From Rhodococcus sp. H36-A4 (GTDB taxonomy: Bacteria > Actinomycetota > Actinomycetes > Mycobacteriales > Mycobacteriaceae), in the NCBI RefSeq assembly GCF_027158005.1, contig NZ_JAPVLQ010000009.1, forward strand, positions 1 through 64,000: a stretch of DNA of 64,000 bases, written 5' to 3'. How positions within the stretch are numbered: the first letter of the stretch is position 1; every line of letters begins with the position of its first letter. Below the pieces are notes generated by a model. That model was not told where the DNA came from and did no database searches. It worked only from the letters and a program-made list of their open reading frames with translations. The position numbers were made by a program, and so were the translations under genes. Positions 36,871 to 45,543 of the stretch are shown in pieces.

Positions 36871-37461
36871 TCAGGCGAGCAGCGAAGGAGCCCTGGCTAC
36901 CGTCACTGCCCAGTCCGCATTTTCGTGCCACGGTCGCAGATCCCACGTCGAGAAGCGGTGCTCGTGAAGTAAGCCGGCCGACTTCAGGTCGCCGTCGAAC
37001 TTCTCCACGGTGTACTCCCTGTCCGTGGCGAATCCGGCGACGAAGACTCCTCCGGGCTTCAGGTGCGCCGTCATCCGCTCGAGAGCCGATGGTTCGGTGC
37101 CCGGTGTCATGAAGACCATCACGTTGCCGGCGACCACGACGGCATCGAATGTCTCGCCGAGGTCGAGTTCGGTCAGATCGGCTTGATGAACCGTCAGGTC
37201 AATGTGCTCTCGTGCGGCTTCGACGAAGACCGGATCGAGATCCACCGCGGTCACTCGATGTCCGCGCCGGGCGAGTTCGGCGCCGAGACGGGCTGTGCCA
37301 CAACCCGCGTCGAGGACCGAACTCCCCGGCGCGAGGAGTGCGTCGACCATCCGAGCCTCGCCGTGTAGGTCGACGCCTCGCGCTTGGAGTCGCGCGAAGC
37401 GTTCGACGTACTCCCTGGACTGGTCCTCGGTGTTGTCGATCTGCCAGCGTGTCGGAGCCAT
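36871..37461 (-). CDS. Class I SAM-dependent methyltransferase
   Basis: A 196-aa methyltransferase. Motif I is VLDAGCGTARLGAELARRGH (~49-68), the acidic residue of motif II is VTAVDLDPVFVEAA (~70-83), and motif IV is FDAVVVAGNVMVFM. C-terminal LKPGGVFVAGFATDREY is the usual post-motif strand. Substrate cannot be inferred. It lies behind the sulfotransferase operon on the same strand with a 48-nt gap, so co-transcription is possible. Confidence 0.85.
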   Translation of the reverse strand: MAPTRWQIDNTEDQSREYVERFARLQARGVDLHGEARMVDALLAPGSSVLDAGCGTARLGAELARRGHRVTAVDLDPVFVEAAREHIDLTVHQADLTELDLGETFDAVVVAGNVMVFMTPGTEPSALERMTAHLKPGGVFVAGFATDREYTVEKFDGDLKSAGLLHEHRFSTWDLRPWHENADWAVTVARAPSLLA

Positions 37462-37509: not shown

Positions 37510-38655
37510 TCACCTCGTCCCGAACCGGCGGTCGATGTCTTCGCCGTCGAGGCCGAAGTCCTCGAGCGTGTACTTGTGCGCCGGCCGCCGTTGCCCACTT
37601 CGGCTTTCGGTGTGCATGGTGTCCATCGCTGAGCGTGCATTCTCGGTGAGATCGAGTCCGAAGTTCTGGTACACCTGCTCGACTGTGCGGAGGGGGTCGG
37701 CGACGAAGTCGTGATAGTCGACGTCGTAGAACTGCGCCGAGTTCGCACGGGACCTCGCGGCCGAGAAACTGTTGAGCCCACGCTCCCACAGATCGACCTG
37801 GGTGCGCCCGATGACGTTGCCGCGGAACAGGTCCGACCAACCTTCGGTGGCGTGCTCGGCGAGGCTGCACATCGACGGCATGATCGTGCGGGGTTCACGG
37901 TGGCATTGGATCACCAGCGCATCCGGGTAGACCTGTAGCAGCTCTTCGAGAGCGAACAGGTGGCTCGGATTCTTCAGAACCCAACGGCGATCGGTGTCGT
38001 TCATACCGATGAGCTGCAGATTCTTCCGGTGTCGCTGGTAGGTCGAGAGCCAGCTCTGTTCGGCCAGCCACGTCGAATAGGTCGGCAGGTACGCGAGGCA
38101 TTCGTAGGCTACGGAATGGACCGATTGCCGCAGAAGCTGCCAGCATTCCTCGACTTCGGCTGCGGACATGTAGTGCACGCCCATGAACTCGGGGTGTTCG
38201 ACATGGTGTTGCGCAAACCCTTTTTCGATCTGCGCGAACAGCGGATTGGATTCCCAGGTCTCACGCGGCGGCCGAGGTTGCGGCATCTCGGTCAGCCACA
38301 TCTCCAAACCCTGATGCGACGGGTCGGCGGTGAGCAGTCGATGCAGCGCAGTCGTGCCGGTGCGAGGAAGACCGGTCACGAAGATCGGCCGCTCGATCGC
38401 GACCTCGGCGTGCGTCGGATTCTGCTTCCATGCGAGCTCGCTGAGTGAACGCGCGACCAGCGCGCCGCGCAGGAAGTACCGGCTCATCTTCGATCCGAGT
38501 GCGGTCAGTTGTGCATCACGGTTGTACGAGTCGAGCAGCACGCCGAGGGCTTCGACATAGTCGTCGGAACCGAAATCTTCGAGGCCGGTGAATTTGGTGG
38601 CAGACGCGTGTAAATCTTCGACGGTACCGACGTCGGTGCGTTCGGTGCTGGTCAT
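37510..38655 (-). CDS. PAPS-dependent sulfotransferase family protein
   Basis: A 381-aa cytosolic protein of the Sulfotransfer_3 group. The 5'-phosphosulfate-binding loop is PIFVTGLPRTGTTALHRLL (~90-108), and the 3'-phosphate region includes WVLKNPSHLFALEELLQVYPDALVIQCHREPRTIMPS. It has no signal peptide. It would transfer sulfate from PAPS to an unknown hydroxylated metabolite. Last gene of the DUF1214-SDR-sulfotransferase operon; the same trio order occurs in M. tuberculosis around Rv3529c-Rv3531c (from memory). The PAPS-making operon lies on the other side of the IclR gene. Confidence 0.85.
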   Translation of the reverse strand: MTSTERTDVGTVEDLHASATKFTGLEDFGSDDYVEALGVLLDSYNRDAQLTALGSKMSRYFLRGALVARSLSELAWKQNPTHAEVAIERPIFVTGLPRTGTTALHRLLTADPSHQGLEMWLTEMPQPRPPRETWESNPLFAQIEKGFAQHHVEHPEFMGVHYMSAAEVEECWQLLRQSVHSVAYECLAYLPTYSTWLAEQSWLSTYQRHRKNLQLIGMNDTDRRWVLKNPSHLFALEELLQVYPDALVIQCHREPRTIMPSMCSLAEHATEGWSDLFRGNVIGRTQVDLWERGLNSFSAARSRANSAQFYDVDYHDFVADPLRTVEQVYQNFGLDLTENARSAMDTMHTESRSGQRRPAHKYTLEDFGLDGEDIDRRFGTR

Positions 38656-38663
38656 GTGCGCTC

Positions 38664-39446
38664 CTAGTGGTGGTATTCGCCGCAGTTGACGTCGAGGCAT
38701 TGGCCGGTGATCGCGCGAGCCGACGGGGAAGCGAGGAATACGACGGCGTCGGCGATCTCGTCGGGTTCGGGCAGCCGTCGTAGGTCCATTGTCGCGGCAG
38801 TTTGCTCGTAGATCTGTTCGCTGGTGATGCCGTACTTCTTCGCCATGTGGTCGAAGTAGCCTTTCAGTGACTCGCCCCAGATGTAGCCGGGCGCAACAGT
38901 ATTGACCCGAATTCCCTGCGGACCCAGCTCGCTGGCCAGGGTTTGCGACATGGCGAGCAATGCTGCTTTGGCGATCTTGTAACCGCCGTACTTGGGCTGG
39001 GAGTGCCGTATTACGGCCGAGTTGATCATGACGATCGAACCGGTCGACTCGGCCAACGCCGGGGTGAACAACTGCGAGAGTCTCAGCGTTCCGAACAGAG
39101 ACAGTTCCAAACCCTGCCGGATGACCGCGGGATCGGTGTGGGCGAGGTCTTTCATCGACGGTATCGCGAAGGCATTGTTGACCAGTACGTCGACGTGGCC
39201 GAACTCCTCGACTGCACGGGTGAGCAGCGCTTGGGAAGAAGCTTCGTCGGTGATATCGGTCGGGACGGTGATCGCCGTTCGGCCGAGTTCGGCAACTTCT
39301 TTGCCGACTTCGAGAAGGTAGCTTTCGGTGCGTGCGGCCAGCACCAGATCGGCGCCCGCGGCGGCGCTGCGTAGTGCGATGGATCGGCCGAGGGATGGTC
39401 CGACGCCGGAGACGACGACAACTTTGCCGTCGAGATGTCCCGTCAT
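38664..39446 (-). CDS. Short-chain dehydrogenase/reductase
   Basis: A 260-aa SDR. The cofactor loop is SGVGPSLGRSIALR (~13-26), a slight variant of TGxxxGxG. NNAFAI (~90-95) is the NNAG-type motif, and the catalytic set is Ser143, Tyr156 and Lys160 (YKIAK). It should oxidise or reduce a hydroxyl/keto group, perhaps on the same molecule the sulfotransferase modifies. The ATG overlaps the upstream gene stop (ATGA), and 8 nt separate it from the sulfotransferase ATG. Confidence 0.9.
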   Translation of the reverse strand: MTGHLDGKVVVVSGVGPSLGRSIALRSAAAGADLVLAARTESYLLEVGKEVAELGRTAITVPTDITDEASSQALLTRAVEEFGHVDVLVNNAFAIPSMKDLAHTDPAVIRQGLELSLFGTLRLSQLFTPALAESTGSIVMINSAVIRHSQPKYGGYKIAKAALLAMSQTLASELGPQGIRVNTVAPGYIWGESLKGYFDHMAKKYGITSEQIYEQTAATMDLRRLPEPDEIADAVVFLASPSARAITGQCLDVNCGEYHH

Positions 39447-40609
39447 CCGAGCATCCTTCGTCCGACAGCGTCGCGACGGGCTGCGATACGCAGGGCGAAG
39501 TCCGCCGGTGAAATCTTGTTCGCGTCGTAGTGCGGTAGATGCGAGGAAATGTCGTCGAAGTCGACTACTTCTACGGTAGGTCCGTCTGCCGCGGTCATCT
39601 CGCGGGAGACTCGTTGCCATCGAAACTGCGCGTAACCGCGGGCATGACCTGTCGTTTCGATCCAGTTGGTCACCTGCGGGTTTCGCTCGCTGACCACAAG
39701 CCTGATGTAACCGTCCGGATCGGTCTGCGCCTGCTCTGCGGTCAACGAAGTTTGGTGGTGGATGTAGTCGAGGGAGATATACCACATGCTGCCCAGCTGG
39801 AACCCTTGATACGGTGCGTCTGACACGGGCACCGTGATGATCATGGCCTGGTCCTCGCGCAGCTCGTAATGACCGGCCGAAGAATACTGGGTGCTCAATC
39901 CTCCCGGCGTGAGCCGCGGTTCGGTCAGGGTGTTGACGTCGAGATTGAGGTAGAACCACTGCGGGAACTGCAAAAATGTGTGGATGCGGCCGAGGAGCAT
40001 CTTGCCTGCGATGGAATAGCGCTTCGCCACAGATTCTTTCGTGGGCGATGCGGGTGATTCCCCTGAGGTGTCTGCTCGATGGATGGTGAGCGTGCCACGG
40101 GTCGCAGACCAGTCGTTGTAAACCTCGCGGACGACCAGCATCGAGGAACCCTCGCCGAGGGTGAAGTGGTTGGGGAGGTCGGAAGGACGACCGAAGTGTA
40201 CTTCGAACGATCCGTCGTCGGCGATGTCGATCGAGCGATCGTCGAAGGCGGTCAAGCTGTCCGGGACATCGACCGGGGAGTAGTCGCCCTTGAGTATCTG
40301 GAAGCTGAGATCGGTTGTGTTGCCTCGTGTTCCGCGTACGATATATTCCGCATCGTCACGAATGTTGGCGTGAAAGTACAGCGTGTCGGGGTTGTCGAGG
40401 CCCATCTTCGTGTACGGGCCTGTCGAGCTCGCGAAGAACGGAAAGTCCTTGTCGTACGCCCAGGCCATCTGGATGGATGCGCGGATGCTGCCGGCGAGGT
40501 AGTCGTATCCCTCGAGCAGGTCCTGTTCCGTTCGTATGTGCGGAGCGTCTTCGATAATCTTCTCGGCCGCTGCGATTGCTTCTGCGAGTGAATCGGTGAG
40601 CACACCCAT
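39443..40609 (-). CDS. DUF1214-like protein, first gene of sulfotransferase operon
   Basis: A 388-aa soluble protein without signal peptide or membrane segment. Segments such as DNPDTLYFHANIRDDAEYIVRGTRGNTTDLSFQI and YNDWSATRGTLTIHRADT, and the C-terminal GSMWYISLDYIHHQTSLTAEQAQTDPDGYIRLVVSERNPQVTNWIETTGHARGYAQFRWQ, match the DUF1214/Rv3531c-like pattern as I recall it. Biochemical role unknown. GAGGA lies only 1-3 nt from the ATG at 40609, so the GTG two codons later (40603) may be the real start. Divergent from iclR. Confidence 0.72.
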   Translation of the reverse strand: MGVLTDSLAEAIAAAEKIIEDAPHIRTEQDLLEGYDYLAGSIRASIQMAWAYDKDFPFFASSTGPYTKMGLDNPDTLYFHANIRDDAEYIVRGTRGNTTDLSFQILKGDYSPVDVPDSLTAFDDRSIDIADDGSFEVHFGRPSDLPNHFTLGEGSSMLVVREVYNDWSATRGTLTIHRADTSGESPASPTKESVAKRYSIAGKMLLGRIHTFLQFPQWFYLNLDVNTLTEPRLTPGGLSTQYSSAGHYELREDQAMIITVPVSDAPYQGFQLGSMWYISLDYIHHQTSLTAEQAQTDPDGYIRLVVSERNPQVTNWIETTGHARGYAQFRWQRVSREMTAADGPTVEVVDFDDISSHLPHYDANKISPADFALRIAARRDAVGRRMLG

Positions 40610-40624
40610 CTCCTCGTGCTTAGT

Positions 40625-40640
40625 GGTACAAATATGTACC
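40625..40640. promoter_or_regulatory. 16-bp palindrome, module operator copy 1
   Basis: GGTACAAATATGTACC has perfect GGTACA/TGTACC arms. With the following GATG it matches the copy at 41641-41660 at 18 of 20 positions. It lies 26 nt downstream of the -10 of the divergent DUF1214-SDR-sulfotransferase promoter, a position suited to repression. Confidence 0.7.
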
Positions 40641-40648
40641 GATGTGGT

Positions 40649-40684
40649 AGAACGAGTTCTGTATCGACAATAGAACGTGTTCTA
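40649..40684. promoter_or_regulatory. Paired AGAAC-N2-GTTCT operators, probable IclR sites
   Basis: AGAACGAGTTCT (40649-40660) and TAGAACGTGTTCTA (40671-40684) are perfect palindromes with centres 23 nt apart, just upstream of the iclR start. The second overlaps the -10 of the leftward promoter. A near copy, TGAAACACGTTCTA, lies in the cysD promoter (41599-41612). Confidence 0.65.
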
Positions 40685-40695
40685 GGAAGGGTCAA
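40667..40695 (-). promoter_or_regulatory. Promoter of the DUF1214-SDR-sulfotransferase operon
   Basis: On the minus strand TTGACC (40695-40690), a 17-nt spacer and TATTGT (40672-40667). The -35 overlaps the iclR start codon. It shares 13 consecutive bases, AACACGTTCTATT, with the cysD promoter. Confidence 0.65.
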
Positions 40696-41591
40696 TGACC
40701 AGTCGCAACTCGCCCCCCACGGACCGCGTCGTCGCGGTCCTCGACTTCATGGTTGCCAGGAGTGACCGACGATTCGGGCTCTCGGCGCTGGCACGTGAGC
40801 TCGGTCTGAGCAAGCCCACCTGCCTGGGCATCCTGACCTCGCTGGTCGGCGCGGGATACCTGGTTCGCGACCCTGTTTCGGTCACCTACGGTCTTGGTCC
40901 CGCGCTGATAGTCGCCGGACGTGCAGCGCAGCAGGGGTTCGCCGTCGGCCCGCTTGCGCGCACGCACCTCGAAGCGCTCAGCGCGAAATTCGACACGACG
41001 TGCACGGCTTCGGGTGTGGTCGGCGATCGCATCACCATCCTCGAGTTGACCTGCCCCGACGGTCGGCGGGCTGCCGCGAAGGTGGGGCAGGTCTACCCGT
41101 TCGCGCCACCGGTAGGCCTCATGTACGTGCTGTGGGACACCGATGAGCGGCTCGATTCGTGGCTTGGTCGTGAACCGACCCTGCCGGTCCGGATGGACGT
41201 CGCGCACCTTCGGCACGTGGTCGACGAGTGCCGTAGAACCGGGTATCTCGTGGAGACGTTGACAGCTGTGGGGCAGAGGTTGCATACCGTCATGGCGGGT
41301 GTTGCCGCACACGATCTTCCGGGGGAGGTCCGCGAACTCCTCGGTGAGATGGTGTCCGGCCTGGGTGAGCGGGTGTACCTGGGCGCGGAGGAGGCTGGTG
41401 CCGACGCTACGCACGAGGTCAGTGTCATCGCGGCTCCGACGTACGACGCTCGAGGGCATCAGTCGTTGGTCCTGACTCTGCATGTCGGAGCGTCGATCTC
41501 GGGCGAGGACATTGCCGAGCGTGGGCAAGCACTCGCTGCCGCCGCCGGCGCGATCACGGCAGAAGTGGGCGGTCGTGCACCGACCCGTTGA
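40695..41591 (+). CDS. IclR-family transcriptional regulator
   Basis: A 298-aa regulator. The N-terminal winged HTH (residues ~8-65) is RVVAVLDFMVARSDRRFGLSALARELGLSKPTCLGILTSLVGAGYLVRDPVSVTYGLGPAL. The C-terminal IclR effector domain has TASGVVGDRITILEL, PFAPPVGLMYVLWD and a final SVIAAPTYDARGHQSLVLTLHVG. It sits between two operons that share promoter and palindrome sequences, so it most likely controls both and itself. The inducer is unknown, perhaps the substrate of the sulfotransferase pathway. GGAAGG precedes the ATG. Confidence 0.9.
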   Translation: MTSRNSPPTDRVVAVLDFMVARSDRRFGLSALARELGLSKPTCLGILTSLVGAGYLVRDPVSVTYGLGPALIVAGRAAQQGFAVGPLARTHLEALSAKFDTTCTASGVVGDRITILELTCPDGRRAAAKVGQVYPFAPPVGLMYVLWDTDERLDSWLGREPTLPVRMDVAHLRHVVDECRRTGYLVETLTAVGQRLHTVMAGVAAHDLPGEVRELLGEMVSGLGERVYLGAEEAGADATHEVSVIAAPTYDARGHQSLVLTLHVGASISGEDIAERGQALAAAAGAITAEVGGRAPTR

Positions 41592-41616
41592 CCAATACTG
41601 AAACACGTTCTATTCT
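41588..41616 (+). promoter_or_regulatory. Promoter of the cysD-cysNC-cysQ operon
   Basis: TTGACC (41588-41593), a 17-nt spacer and TATTCT (41611-41616). The -35 overlaps the iclR stop codon. AACACGTTCTATT is identical to the divergent operon promoter. Confidence 0.7.
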
Positions 41617-41640
41617 TCGAGCACGGATTTGAACCGCACC

Positions 41641-41656
41641 GGTCCAAATATGGACC
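41641..41656. promoter_or_regulatory. 16-bp palindrome, module operator copy 2
   Basis: GGTCCAAATATGGACC has perfect GGTCCA/TGGACC arms and is followed by GATG, as is the copy at 40625-40640. It lies 24 nt after the -10 of the cysD promoter and 28 nt before the cysD ATG. Confidence 0.7.
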
Positions 41657-41684
41657 GATGCGTTGTGATCGGAGGACTTCACCG

Positions 41685-42596
41685 ATGTCGACCTCGTACG
41701 AACTCACGCACCTTGCTGCGCTCGAAGCGGAAGCCGTCCATATCTTCCGTGAAGTCGCGGCCACCGCCGAACGTCCGGTGCTGCTGTTCTCCGGCGGCAA
41801 GGACTCGGTGGTGATGCTCCATGTGGCAGCCAAAGCCTTCTGGCCCGCCCGACTCCCGTTCTCCGTCATGCACATCGACACCGGACACAACTTCGACGAG
41901 GTCCTGTCCTTCCGTGACCGAGCGGTCGAGCATTTCGGCGTCAACCTGACCGTGGCCAGCGTGCAGGACGACATCGACTCCGGACGCTCGATCGAGGAGA
42001 GCGGGCCGGGGGCCAGTCGAAACCGACTCCAGACCGCGACACTGCTACGCGCGATTGCCGAGAACTCGTTCGACGCCGTATTCGGTGGTGCCCGTCGGGA
42101 CGAGGAGAAGGCGCGTGCCAAAGAGCGCGTCTTCAGCTTTCGTGACGAACATGGCCAATGGGATCCGCGTCGCCAGCGCCCGGAACTGTGGCAGTTGTAC
42201 AACGGCCGTCACCGGCGCGGCGAACATTTCCGGGTGTTCCCACTGTCGAACTGGACCGAACTCGACATCTGGCAGTACATCGAGGCAGAGCAGATCGAAC
42301 TCCCGCACATCTATTACGCGCACAATCGCACGGTCGTGCCCAGAGCTGGAATGCTCCTGGCCGTTTCGAGATTCGTGCCGGTGCTGCCCGGCGAAGAACC
42401 CTTCGAGGAGACGGTCCGCTTTCGTACCGTCGGCGACGCGACCTGCACCGGGTGTGTGCAGTCCTCGGCCGCCGATGCGCACGACGTCGTACTGGAAGTC
42501 GCCGCCAGCAGAATGACCGAGCGCGGCGCGACACGGGCCGACGACCGTATATCGGAGGCCGGAATGGAAGACCGCAAGAAGGAAGGGTACTTCTGA
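41685..42596 (+). CDS. cysD: Sulfate adenylyltransferase subunit 2
   Basis: A 303-aa ATP sulfurylase catalytic subunit making adenosine 5'-phosphosulfate from sulfate and ATP. The PP-loop is LLFSGGKDSVVML (SGGKDS at 36-41). Further CysD landmarks are HIDTGHNFDEVLSFRD, AVFGGARRDEEKARAKERVFSFRD and the C-terminal GDATCTGCVQSSA, ending RKKEGYF. Start at ATG 41685, with GGAGGAC upstream. Its stop overlaps the cysNC start (TGATG). It acts as a complex with the GTPase part of CysNC. Confidence 0.95.
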   Translation: MSTSYELTHLAALEAEAVHIFREVAATAERPVLLFSGGKDSVVMLHVAAKAFWPARLPFSVMHIDTGHNFDEVLSFRDRAVEHFGVNLTVASVQDDIDSGRSIEESGPGASRNRLQTATLLRAIAENSFDAVFGGARRDEEKARAKERVFSFRDEHGQWDPRRQRPELWQLYNGRHRRGEHFRVFPLSNWTELDIWQYIEAEQIELPHIYYAHNRTVVPRAGMLLAVSRFVPVLPGEEPFEETVRFRTVGDATCTGCVQSSAADAHDVVLEVAASRMTERGATRADDRISEAGMEDRKKEGYF

Positions 42597-44437
42597 TGTC
42601 GCAACTGCTTCGAGTAGCTACGGCGGGAAGCGTCGACGACGGCAAATCGACTCTGATCGGTCGGCTCCTCTACGACTCGAAAGCGATTTTCGAGGATCAA
42701 TTGGAGGCCGTGGAGAAGACCAGTCGTGAACGAGGCGGCGACACAGTCGATCTCGCGCTGCTCACCGACGGACTGCGCGCCGAGCGGGAACAGGGCATCA
42801 CGATCGACGTCGCGTATCGCTACTTCTCCACGCCGAGAAGAAAATTCATCATCGCCGATACGCCGGGGCACCAGCAGTACACCAGGAACATGGTCACCGG
42901 CGCTTCGACCGCCGATCTTGCGCTGATACTCGTCGATGCCCGTCACGGGATCCTCGAACAGACGAAGCGACATGCGTTTCTCTCGTCCTTGCTCGGTATC
43001 CGACATCTCGTGTTGTGCATCAACAAGATGGATCTCGTCGACTATTCGTGCGCTCGATACGAAGAGATCAAAGCGGAGTTCCGCGAGTTCGCAATGAAAC
43101 TCGAAGTACCAGACCTCACGTTCGTACCGATGTCGGCCATCGATGGGGACAACGTTGTTCATCGCACCGCGCAGATGCCCTGGTACGAGGGGAGCTCGCT
43201 TCTGCACCACCTCGAGGACGTCCACGTTGCTTCCGACCGCAACCTCATCGACGCCCGATTCCCGGTCCAGTATGTAATTCGACCGAAACACAGCTCCGGT
43301 GAGCATGCCGACTTCCGGGGCTACGCAGGAACCGTCGCCAGCGGAGTGTTCAAACCCGGGGACGAAGTCGTAGCGCTCCCCTCCGGATTCGTCACCAGAA
43401 TCGCAGCGGTGTGGGGGCCGGGTGGAACGCCGGTCGACGAGGGGTTCGCGCCGTCGGCGGTGTGTATCGAACTCGAGGACAAGGTCGACGTCGGGCGCGG
43501 GGACATGCTGTGCCGTCCCAACAATCGTCCGCTCGTCGGAACAGAGCTCGATGCCATGGTCTGTTGGCTCGCAGAGGGCGCACAGTTGCGCAGTGACGAC
43601 CGGTACGTGCTGATGCACACCACGGCGTCGACACCAGCGCGGGTGGAAAAACTGGACTACCGGCTCGACGTCAATACTCTGCATCGTGACGAAGCTGCAC
43701 AATCGTTGGGTATCAACGACATCGGTCGAGTGCAGATCCGCACGCACAATCCGATCCTGTTCGATCCGTACCGACGCAACCGAGTCACCGGCAGCTTCCT
43801 ACTCGTCGACGAGTCGTCCGGAGCCACGGTCGCCGCCGGGATGATCACCGGGCCCACGTTGTCGGCAGCGAAAGTCGTCTGGCACTCGTCCCGGGTTGCC
43901 CGCGAGGAACGTGCAACGCTCGGTGCCACGATCTGGTTGACCGGCTTGTCGGCTTCGGGAAAGTCGACCGTGGCAGCGGAACTGGAACGTTTGCTGGTGG
44001 CGTCCGGGCGACCGGCATATCGGTTGGATGGAGACAACCTGCGTCACGGGCTCAATTCCGATCTCGGGTTCGATGCAGCCGACCGCACCGAGAACGTAAG
44101 ACGAGTGGGGGCCGTGGCCCAACTGATTGCCGACGCCGGGGTTGTTGCGATCGCCTGTCTCATCAGCCCGTACCGCGAAGACCGCGACGACGTGCGGAAG
44201 GTGCACGAGAAGGCCGGACTGCCCTTCTTCGAGGTCTTCGTAGACACCCCGTTCGACGTCTGCGCAGCGCGCGACCCGAAAGGTATGTACGCCAAGGCTA
44301 TCGCCGGTGAGATCACCGGCTTCACTGGAGTGGACGACCCCTACGAAGCGCCCGAGCACCCCGAATTGGTGCTGGCGGCCTCCGACGGTGATCCGGCAAC
44401 ACAGGCCGCTCGGATTGTGGAAATGTTGGGATCGTGA
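42596..44437 (+). CDS. cysNC: Bifunctional sulfate adenylyltransferase subunit 1 / APS kinase
   Basis: A 613-aa fusion. The N-terminal CysN GTPase has GSVDDGKST (11-19), DTPGH (88-92) and NKMDLVD, followed by EF-Tu-like beta barrels. The C-terminal APS kinase (from ~440) has P-loop GLSASGKST (450-458), RLDGDNLRHGLNSDLGF and FVDTPFDVCAARDPKGMYAKA. Together with CysD it turns sulfate into PAPS. The fusion is the usual actinobacterial arrangement. The absence of a PAPS/APS reductase gene here points to sulfonation rather than assimilation as the purpose of this locus. Confidence 0.95.
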   Translation: MSQLLRVATAGSVDDGKSTLIGRLLYDSKAIFEDQLEAVEKTSRERGGDTVDLALLTDGLRAEREQGITIDVAYRYFSTPRRKFIIADTPGHQQYTRNMVTGASTADLALILVDARHGILEQTKRHAFLSSLLGIRHLVLCINKMDLVDYSCARYEEIKAEFREFAMKLEVPDLTFVPMSAIDGDNVVHRTAQMPWYEGSSLLHHLEDVHVASDRNLIDARFPVQYVIRPKHSSGEHADFRGYAGTVASGVFKPGDEVVALPSGFVTRIAAVWGPGGTPVDEGFAPSAVCIELEDKVDVGRGDMLCRPNNRPLVGTELDAMVCWLAEGAQLRSDDRYVLMHTTASTPARVEKLDYRLDVNTLHRDEAAQSLGINDIGRVQIRTHNPILFDPYRRNRVTGSFLLVDESSGATVAAGMITGPTLSAAKVVWHSSRVAREERATLGATIWLTGLSASGKSTVAAELERLLVASGRPAYRLDGDNLRHGLNSDLGFDAADRTENVRRVGAVAQLIADAGVVAIACLISPYREDRDDVRKVHEKAGLPFFEVFVDTPFDVCAARDPKGMYAKAIAGEITGFTGVDDPYEAPEHPELVLAASDGDPATQAARIVEMLGS

Positions 44438-45543
44438 GCGCCCTCCACTCGGCCGAAGACGATGCCCGATTCGCCGCCGACCTCGCCGAGTCCGCAGGCC
44501 GATTGCTGCTCGAAATTCGCGAACGCGAAGGACGAACGACTCAGGGGCGGGAGCTCGGCAGGCTCGGCGACACCGAAGCCGACGCGCTGATCCTGGGCCG
44601 ATTGGCAGGCGAACGCCCCGGCGACGCAGTGCTCTCGGAAGAGTCGGCCGATGATCTCCGCAGGCTGGATGCTGCCCGTGTCTGGATCATCGACCCACTC
44701 GACGGCTCACGCGAATACGGCATCGAGGGTCGAGCCGACTGGGCAGTGCACGTGGGCCTGTGGGAAAAAGACCAGGGGATGACAGCGTCGGCAGTTGCCC
44801 AGCCTGCGCTCGGCGTCGTCTACTCGTCGGCCGACGTCGCCGGCCCGCCGCCGCAGTCCGGTAGGCCCACGCTTGTGGTCAGCGACTCTCGGCCGCCGTA
44901 CTACATGGACGATCTCGCGCGCTCGGTCGATGCCGACGTCGTGACCATGGGTTCGGCAGGTGCCAAAGCCATGGCGGTCGTACGCGGGGAGGTAGACGCC
45001 TACGTGCATTCCGGTGGTCAGTGGGAGTGGGACTCGGCAGCGCCCGTCGGCGTCGCACTCGCAGCGGGTTTGCATTGCTCGCGTATCGACGGAATGCCGT
45101 TGCGGTACAACCAGTCCCATCCGTACCTTCCAGACTTACTGATCTGCAGGCAGGAGCTCGCACAACCACTTCTGGCGGGAATTGCCACCTATGCCACGCG
45201 CGAGGTGGATTCCGGTCGCGCCGCGATGGCACGTGAATACATCAAGGCTCTGCTCAGTCACGATGCCACCAAGGTCCGTCTCGCCGACGACTGTCGGCGT
45301 GTGGAGAACGGACAGCAGACCGGTGACACCGGAGCATTCATCAGGGACGAACTCGAGAACGGCGCCCAGTACACGCCGATCATCGCCATCGGGGAGATAG
45401 AGATTCGAGAATGGGGCACCAGCGTCGTGGCACGTTTCTCCCTCGAGTTCGACGGCGGTATGTCGGTGGCAGTGACCGAGCATTTCGACATTCCGGCCGG
45501 AGATATCGTCGCCATTACGGCGATCATCGAACCGGTAAGTTAG
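44434..45543 (+). CDS. cysQ: CysQ-type PAP phosphatase fused to an NTF2-like domain
   Basis: A 369-aa protein. Residues ~1-262 are an inositol-monophosphatase-fold CysQ: GDTEADALILGRL, VLSEESAD, metal-binding WIIDPLDGSREY (D87, D90) and EWDSAAPVGVALAAG (D200). It should hydrolyse PAP, the by-product of sulfotransferases. Residues ~263-369 (REYIKALLSHDATKVRLADDCRRVENGQQTG...EWGTSVVARFSLEFDGGMSVAVTEHFDIPAGDIVAITAII) are not part of CysQ and look like an NTF2/SnoaL-like domain. No frameshift is seen. GTG start overlaps the cysNC stop (GTGA). Its stop overlaps that of the convergent gene (TTAG). Confidence 0.85.
   Translation: MSALHSAEDDARFAADLAESAGRLLLEIREREGRTTQGRELGRLGDTEADALILGRLAGERPGDAVLSEESADDLRRLDAARVWIIDPLDGSREYGIEGRADWAVHVGLWEKDQGMTASAVAQPALGVVYSSADVAGPPPQSGRPTLVVSDSRPPYYMDDLARSVDADVVTMGSAGAKAMAVVRGEVDAYVHSGGQWEWDSAAPVGVALAAGLHCSRIDGMPLRYNQSHPYLPDLLICRQELAQPLLAGIATYATREVDSGRAAMAREYIKALLSHDATKVRLADDCRRVENGQQTGDTGAFIRDELENGAQYTPIIAIGEIEIREWGTSVVARFSLEFDGGMSVAVTEHFDIPAGDIVAITAIIEPVS

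Follow-up and report, generated by a model that had tools for sequence, protein, structure and literature searches.

The 64,000-nucleotide stretch of DNA from Rhodococcus sp. H36-A4 analyzed here (the window; contig 29 of a 4.65-Mb genome rated 100% complete) carries two divergent operons, one with a sulfotransferase and one with the genes for its sulfo donor, 3′-phosphoadenosine 5′-phosphosulfate (PAPS). We read them as a steroid-induced sulfonation module in which PAPS is made for one sulfotransferase and the acceptor is a steroid or steroid-derived compound, with a probability of about 0.58. The gene identities, a separate assimilatory route, a single full-length adenosine 5′-phosphosulfate (APS) kinase, the linkage of the two operons, the regulatory boxes and their geometry, and the co-occurrence with the regulator KstR are observed in the sequence. 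From these we infer the binding of KstR and of an IclR-family regulator in this organism, their signals, the acceptor, and the roles of a short-chain dehydrogenase/reductase (SDR) and a DUF1214-like protein.

Leftward from position 40609 lie the genes of the DUF1214-like protein (R3531), the SDR, the sulfotransferase, and a methyltransferase; rightward from 40695 lie iclR, cysD, cysNC, and cysQ. Apart from the methyltransferase, this is the layout described in an earlier note, and it was confirmed. SDR and R3531 overlap by 4 bp, cysD and cysNC by 1 bp, and cysNC and cysQ by 4 bp. The sulfotransferase likely starts at 38655, behind an AGGAG that overlaps the SDR stop, and cysD at 41685, behind a GGAGG. 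The features are as follows:

36871..37461, minus strand: class I S-adenosylmethionine (SAM) methyltransferase (PF13649, E 1.2e-19), 48 bp behind the sulfotransferase
37510..38655, minus strand (open frame from 38700): sulfotransferase, Stf1 type (PF13469, E 9e-59; 2zq5, E 4e-171)
38664..39446, minus strand: SDR, PRK07890 type (NF005909, 402 bits)
39443..40609, minus strand: R3531, DUF1214-like protein of the Rv3531c type
40625..40640: palindrome GGTACAAATATGTACC, putative IclR operator of the left promoter (from the GGTNCANATNTGNACC sites and the tracking of IclR across loci)
40648..40661: second KstR-type box with one mismatch, TAGAACGAGTTCTG (motif search)
40667..40695, minus strand: promoter-like TTGACC-N17-TATTGT of the left operon (pattern search)
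40671..40684: KstR box TAGAACGTGTTCTA in the spacer of the left promoter (motif search)
40695..41591, plus strand: IclR-family regulator (PF09339, E 2.3e-8)
41588..41616, plus strand: promoter-like TTGACC-N17-TATTCT of the right operon (pattern search)
41599..41612: KstR-type box TGAAACACGTTCTA in the spacer and −10 of the cysD promoter (motif search)
41641..41656: palindrome GGTCCAAATATGGACC, putative IclR operator of the cysD promoter (pattern search)
41685..42596, plus strand (open frame from 41658): CysD, ATP sulfurylase small subunit (TIGR02039, 445 bits)
42596..44437, plus strand: CysNC, ATP sulfurylase GTPase with fused APS kinase (NF004035, 942 bits; PF01583, E 8.6e-67)
44434..45543, plus strand: phosphatase of the CysQ type for 3′-phosphoadenosine 5′-phosphate (PAP), with an extra C-terminal domain (PF00459, E 1.6e-27)

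PAPS supply and the sulfotransferase

Three PF01507 matches are found in the genome: the CysD of the window and, adjoining each other on contig 24, a reductase and a second CysD. The contig 24 locus also holds a sulfite/nitrite-reductase-type protein and a CysN lacking the kinase part. On the window's contig CysD is the only PF01507 match, and neither an APS/PAPS reductase nor a sulfite reductase lies beside the module. The contig 24 reductase contains CCAMRKVAPL, SIGCAPC, and KTECGLH, given as signatures of APS reductases (PMC8557817); it passes the TIGR02055 APS reductase model (236.7 vs. 235.3) and fails the TIGR02057 PAPS reductase model. As judged from sequence, assimilation most likely runs from APS. 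In CysD and the CysN-APS kinase fusion of the window all domains are complete, and CysNC is the sole full-length APS kinase of the genome, the next PF01583 match covering 43 positions (E 8e-4). With assimilation starting from APS and the single full-length APS kinase lying in the window, the fused kinase would serve sulfation, and a dedicated PAPS supply for Stf1 is very likely in our judgment. The earlier note had proposed a dedicated module, unlike an assimilation locus, and had asked for a second, assimilatory cysD-cysN. Such a pair exists, beside the sulfite-reductase-type protein and the APS reductase; with the linkage described below it supports the proposal, which is stronger than first stated because of the single full-length kinase. 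CysQ matches the profile of the PAP phosphatase 5djf (E 1.5e-92).

Residues 19-394 of the 396 of the sulfotransferase were aligned (E 4e-171) with 2zq5, which we take to be Mycobacterium tuberculosis Stf1 (Rv3529c). The alignment includes GLPRTGTTALHRLL and the CHREPRTIMPSMCSL region, which are PAPS-binding motifs of sulfotransferases. By this full-length similarity the protein belongs to the Stf1 (Rv3529c) lineage, and PAPS-dependent activity is predicted; the identity of Rv3529c and Stf1 is given in PMC8882603. In a genome-wide search of the families PF13469 and PF09037 (Stf0), Stf1 was the single PF13469 match at E <= 0.001 and PF09037 gave none. The nearest solved chain to the SDR is 3ucx (E 3e-93), with 7-alpha-hydroxysteroid dehydrogenases among the next. 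R3531 scores 17 bits on DUF1214 (PF06742), below the Pfam cut-off of 25, and its fold matches 6ans; distant paralogues in two Rhodococcus loci, L143 and L144, pass PF06742 at 33.4 and 30.1 bits.

The methyltransferase stands behind Stf in 10 of the 80 loci compared below (L005-L014). It is probably a fourth member of the left operon, confined to the nearest relatives, and might methylate the metabolite that Stf1 sulfates.

Conservation of the linked operons

The best 80 of 108 relatives were taken as Stf loci, so the linkage rate describes the closest kin; in three (L051, L056, and L061) the sequence ends early on the informative side. R3531 was found in 79 of the 80, the SDR in 77, CysD together with CysNC in 58, CysQ in 44, and an IclR homologue at least 45% identical in 44. 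The nearest relatives are Rhodococcus sp. BP22, 1163, and 1168 (Stf 97-98% identical). Where linked, Rhodococcus and Prescottella have the layout of the window, divergent with IclR; Saccharopolyspora and Kibdelosporangium are divergent without such an IclR; and Nocardia has a single operon, cysD-cysNC-R3531-SDR-Stf, with a different IclR (27-30%). In the stretches compared, Mycobacterium, Actinomadura, Microtetraspora, and Tomitella have the R3531-SDR-Stf trio without cys genes. Chance adjacency of the two halves was considered and rejected, as 58/80 loci are linked in at least three layouts; the linkage suggested by the earlier note thus extends to relatives.

A lineage of CysNC private to the module was also rejected. 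A first tree had put 32 sampled Stf1-linked CysNC in one clade. In a wider tree with unlinked genomes, unlinked mycobacterial CysNC is the sister of that clade (96/90), and the next branch is the kinase-less CysN of Actinomadura/Microtetraspora kin (90/65, weak). With these neighbours, the module CysNC looks like an ordinary actinobacterial line. CysNC kin were sought in 17 of the 22 unlinked-trio genomes, and eight surrounding stretches were inspected.

A paralogous operon, with 29-56% identity to the window genes, was observed in two Rhodococcus strains that also gave Stf loci L045 and L046 (L143:5471-12405 and L144:5738-12717) and in Actinocorallia (L147:4552-10851). Its order is (CysQ)-CysD-CysNC-SDR-sulfotransferase-DUF1214 protein, CysQ being absent from L147, and a SnoaL-like gene is present in L143 and L147. 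The identities are 47% for CysD, 49-51% for CysNC, 54-55% for the SDR, 49-52% for the sulfotransferase, and 29-30% for the DUF1214 protein. In the wider tree the paralogous CysNC groups apart (100/100), in a six-row clade shared with Tomitella CysNC that have no trio paralogues alongside (L145 and L146). Because the same set of parts recurs in a second assembly of dissimilar members, the PAPS genes appear to form one working unit with the SDR, the sulfotransferase, and the DUF1214-like protein.

Two further observations concern the partner proteins. A small-protein family lies near R3531 in nine loci (Microtetraspora, Saccharopolyspora, and Kibdelosporangium); the two members tested, L052:6626-7108 and L081:7513-8013, are SnoaL-like (PF13577), and the SnoaL-like protein is another recurrent partner of the trio. 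The C-terminal extra domain of CysQ (~110 residues, about 45211-45540) is conserved in 15/15 CysQ rows aligned. In the window it has no Pfam match, and from the order of strands and helices in a structure model (predicted local distance difference test score, 90) it looks NTF2-like. That this tail is the SnoaL-like partner was rejected, profile comparison giving a probability of 0.4%.

Regulatory sites and co-occurrence with KstR

The pattern TRRAACNNGTTYYA has two sites in the window, at 40671 and 41599, vs. 0.00 expected in shuffles. Both lie inside the spacer of a promoter-like TTGACC-N17-TATT(G/C)T, itself found at two sites in 1.5 kb vs. 0.2 expected, so that both promoter-like sites hold the palindrome TnnAACnnGTTnnA reported as the KstR core (PMC1995591). 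The same study reports KstR binding at Rv3531c/Rv3532 by electrophoretic mobility shift assay and a positive reverse-transcription quantitative PCR result for the M. smegmatis counterpart, MSMEG_5932/5933. It also lists the box form seen at 41599 among KstR sites and places the motif at kstR over the putative −10. The genome has its own KstR (NF033703, 337 bits; cut-off 280), with a KstR box 26 bp before the longest open frame of kstR, and the box should therefore be legible to this organism. Other boxes in the genome precede acyl-CoA-dehydrogenase-like genes, an acyl-CoA synthetase, and an SDR followed by an MlaE permease, and another lies between a steroid 3-ketoacyl-CoA thiolase and a cytochrome P450. 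No KstR box was found in the assimilatory cysD region. Across loci, a box was required to have the AAC/GTT core, to differ from TAGAACNNGTTCTA at no more than two positions, and to lie upstream within about 260 bp. Such boxes precede R3531 in 67/80 loci and cysD in 49/58 linked loci, where 15 sites, counted more loosely, are expected in all 1.63 Mb (mononucleotide shuffle). On these motifs, control of both operons by KstR is very likely.

A second element, the palindrome GGTnCAnATnTGnACC, lies ~25 bp downstream of each −10 and tracks the IclR gene. Both window copies, GGTACAAATATGTACC and GGTCCAAATATGGACC, are perfect palindromes, and GGTNCANATNTGNACC has four exact sites in the genome, two of them in the window (reversed control, 0). 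Counted at up to one change, the palindrome is upstream of R3531 in 44/44 IclR-bearing loci and upstream of cysD in 34/39 linked IclR loci; it occurs at R3531 or cysD in 2/36 loci without IclR (L010 and L080). Because of this co-occurrence it is likely the operator of IclR. Box-palindrome pairs spaced 20-70 bp apart were taken from the IclR-bearing loci and the window, and the 20 bp preceding each box were searched for TTGAC. Of the 82 pairs, 76 have TTGAC 11-12 bp before the box, and 77 have box and palindrome 38-49 bp apart; the remaining five involve a second box at 21 bp. The placement of the palindrome beyond the −10 would fit a road-block type of repression. The earlier proposal of IclR control has to be amended in that IclR is not the sole likely control, both promoters carrying KstR boxes.

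In Nocardia, another perfect palindrome, GTCGAATATTCGAC, was observed upstream of cysD in seven of eight loci (L065, L067, L068, L073, L075, L079, and L084), and with one change in L071. It is probably the operator of the IclR swapped in there.

APS kinases, Stf1, Stf0, and KstR were counted in an identical set of 37 congeneric genomes, up to 76 (APS kinase) and 66 (KstR) first-look candidates being scored per genome. For KstR the NF033703 cut-off of 280 bits, passed by 0/14 controls, was the only one used, because E <= 0.001 matches 37/37 genomes and 13/14 controls (TetR background). All 23 full-length APS kinases adjoin a sulfotransferase. Fourteen of them (221-228 bits) are in exactly the 14 Stf1 genomes, on the same contig and 4.5-5.6 kb from Stf1; the other nine (207-212 bits) are in exactly the nine Stf0 genomes, ~2.3 kb from Stf0. 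Both sulfotransferases are present in 3/37 genomes and neither in 17/37. Besides all 14 genomes with Stf1, KstR passes the cut-off in G004 and G026 (16/37 in total), so that Stf1 is found in 14/16 KstR genomes vs. 0/21 without KstR (Fisher p 2e-8, ancestry ignored). Stf0 is found in 5/16 vs. 4/21 (p 0.46, ancestry ignored) and, unlike Stf1, is not biased towards KstR genomes.

In G012, G013, G017, and G035 a long frame (e.g., L111:2253-4010, and L112) carries a partial stretch that resembles an APS kinase and reaches no further than position 109 of 152; it was left out of the APS kinase count. In the two inspected the long frame is CysN, and the shortened stretch is possibly a decaying kinase domain. 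G012 and G035 carry it besides Stf0.

Proposed mechanism, alternatives, and known systems

The steroid-induced module would operate as follows. When sterols are absent, KstR in the −35/−10 spacer and IclR downstream would shut both operons. Sterol breakdown would lift KstR, whose release involves a steroid-CoA ligand, and IclR, the second lock, would respond to a module-specific molecule, probably the substrate or product of the module itself. CysD and CysNC would then turn sulfate, ATP, and GTP into PAPS, Stf1 would sulfonate a hydroxyl on one acceptor, and CysQ would destroy the by-product PAP, which inhibits at least one mycobacterial sulfotransferase (PMC3141025). The SDR may set the hydroxyl to be sulfated, and R3531 may bind or convert the product. 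On balance we favor a steroid or steroid-derived acceptor; the sterol or lipid guessed at in the earlier note gains support in this way and remains a candidate. A wider proposal is tentative: that this is an unrecognized actinobacterial sulfonation branch of steroid metabolism, relatives of M. tuberculosis included. There the Stf1-SDR-DUF1214 trio would make a sulfated steroid intermediate, for export, solubility, or signaling, or with sulfate as the leaving group in a reduction-sulfation-elimination. The rhodococci of this genus would keep PAPS synthesis for it, with KstR and a local lock over supply, transfer, and PAP removal.

Several results weigh against the steroid-induced module. Two KstR genomes, G004 and G026, lack Stf1, so steroid catabolism can do without it if KstR marks that pathway, and the 14/16 vs. 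0/21 split may be due partly to shared ancestry. In G013 and G017 the partial APS-kinase stretch (50-52 bits) occurs without any PF13469 or PF09037 match. The contig 24 reductase also passes NF002537 and TIGR00434, which are named for phosphoadenylyl-sulfate reductase. Of six further perfect boxes in the genome, just four immediately precede kstR or a gene of steroid/lipid type. The remaining two are at an NlpC/P60 gene (C25:266185) and at the 3′ end of an Rv3520c-like gene (C22:811740); two near-perfect boxes are at MurT-type and alcohol-dehydrogenase-type genes. No box was found before R3531 in 13/80 loci: eight Nocardia, two Tomitella, L037, L051 (sequence ending before R3531), and L056 (only 165 bp of upstream sequence). 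Seven of the eight Nocardia operons have no KstR box and carry another IclR and another palindrome, the remaining one, L071, having its box before cysD instead of R3531; nor was a box found at the paralogous operons (L143, L144, and L147). IclR is absent from four of the ten nearest loci (L008, L010, L011, and L013), L010 nevertheless keeping the palindrome, which is missing before cysD in 5/39 linked IclR loci. The SDR was not found in 2/2 Antrihabitans loci, and the window flanks, judged from translations alone, hold acyl-CoA/valine-type rather than steroid genes.

With module and regulation unchanged, the acceptor could instead be an envelope lipid or glycolipid synthesized during growth on sterols, for instance from surplus propionyl-CoA. 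In mycobacteria, sulfolipid synthesis begins with Stf0, and menaquinone is sulfated by Stf3. PF13469 is uninformative on the acceptor, and a SAM methyltransferase stands behind the sulfotransferase in the nearest relatives. Transfer to bacterial metabolites generally is described in PMC3141025. The partners in most loci, however, include no glycosyltransferase, acyltransferase, lipid exporter, or polyketide synthase gene, and the structural kin of the SDR include 7-alpha-hydroxysteroid dehydrogenases, although SDR specificity is a weak guide. We consider a lipid acceptor unlikely. Phase-II-like detoxification of a hydroxylated foreign compound sensed by IclR, with the KstR boxes as a lipid-stress umbrella only, seems more doubtful still. 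IclR regulators often sense aromatic compounds, the window IclR matches the PcaR/PobR model weakly, far below the cut-off, and the Nocardia and paralogous operons do without the KstR box; against this stand the distribution of Stf1 over the KstR genomes and the conservation of the box in both promoters. Very improbable, finally, is an accessory locus for sulfur assimilation or starvation, or for sulfite disposal via PAPS as proposed for R. qingshengii IGTS8. CysD and CysN are assimilation enzymes, and CysD2 and Stf0 were detected only in dibenzothiophene-grown IGTS8 cells (PMC8557817). Yet an APS-based assimilatory locus is present elsewhere in the genome and lacks the KstR-type boxes seen here, and the IGTS8 cluster has the Stf0-type order, which in this genus accompanies a different CysNC, of another clade (49-51% identity for the two inspected).

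In ancestry, the trio corresponds to the Stf1 set of mycobacteria. Six mycobacterial loci (L061, L069, L070, L077, L082, and L083) share the three genes in the order Rv3531c-Rv3530c-Rv3529c, M. tuberculosis itself being known here from the literature, and the KstR motif before R3531/Rv3531c is common to both. The trio's neighbours are KshA, KstD, and hsa-type cholesterol genes in L082 and thiolases in L069. Unlike the window, 6/6 of these loci are without cys genes, IclR, or the IclR palindrome (the L061 sequence ends early there); in four mycobacterial trio genomes CysNC lies apart from the trio (surroundings inspected for one). In the mycobacterial cholesterol regulon the orthologous genes are annotated as conserved hypothetical, possible oxidoreductase, and hypothetical (PMC6429209), and a role for Stf1 in steroid metabolism was not found in the literature surveyed, most subscription papers being outside reach. 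The earlier note is also to be amended in that the sulfotransferase is of a known type, Stf1/Rv3529c, whose neighbour Rv3531c is a mycobacterial KstR target (PMC1995591).

Dedicated PAPS cassettes are already known. In Bacteroides thetaiotaomicron BT_0411-BT_0416, a sulfotransferase lies next to its own putative PAPS genes; one sulfotransferase gene and one PAPS gene are cholesterol-induced, and the product is cholesterol sulfate (PMC9417993). The module may work like this cholesterol-inducible cluster, a likeness of function, sulfotransferase homology aside. B. thetaiotaomicron belongs to another phylum, and the accessible text mentions no KstR, IclR, SDR, or DUF1214-like partner. The Stf0-linked CysN2C-CysD2 of R. 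qingshengii IGTS8 likewise puts a sulfotransferase beside a CysNC/CysD pair, and the assimilatory CysN there is without APS kinase (PMC8557817); the sulfotransferase is of another family and stands next to cysD, an order also found in this genus. The adp cluster of Streptomyces davaonensis is a biosynthetic cluster with a dedicated PAPS cassette, presented by its authors as not general; its products are natural products, the adipostatins, and no link to steroid regulation is mentioned in the text available (PMC12135136). New, as far as the literature surveyed goes, are the union of these known parts, the double switch on both halves, the one-to-one tally of PAPS enzyme and sulfotransferase, and the genus-wide tie to KstR.

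The Rhodococcus layout indicates what genes of the mycobacterial Rv3529c-Rv3531c type need, namely PAPS, and their role in steroid metabolism becomes a question that metabolomics can answer. With 23/23 full-length APS kinases beside a sulfotransferase, the genus offers a clean case of a sulfation branch split from assimilation. A sulfotransferase known from mycobacterial cholesterol genes, joined to the synthesis of its donor and with an apparent KstR switch on both, points to a hidden sulfation step in steroid handling.

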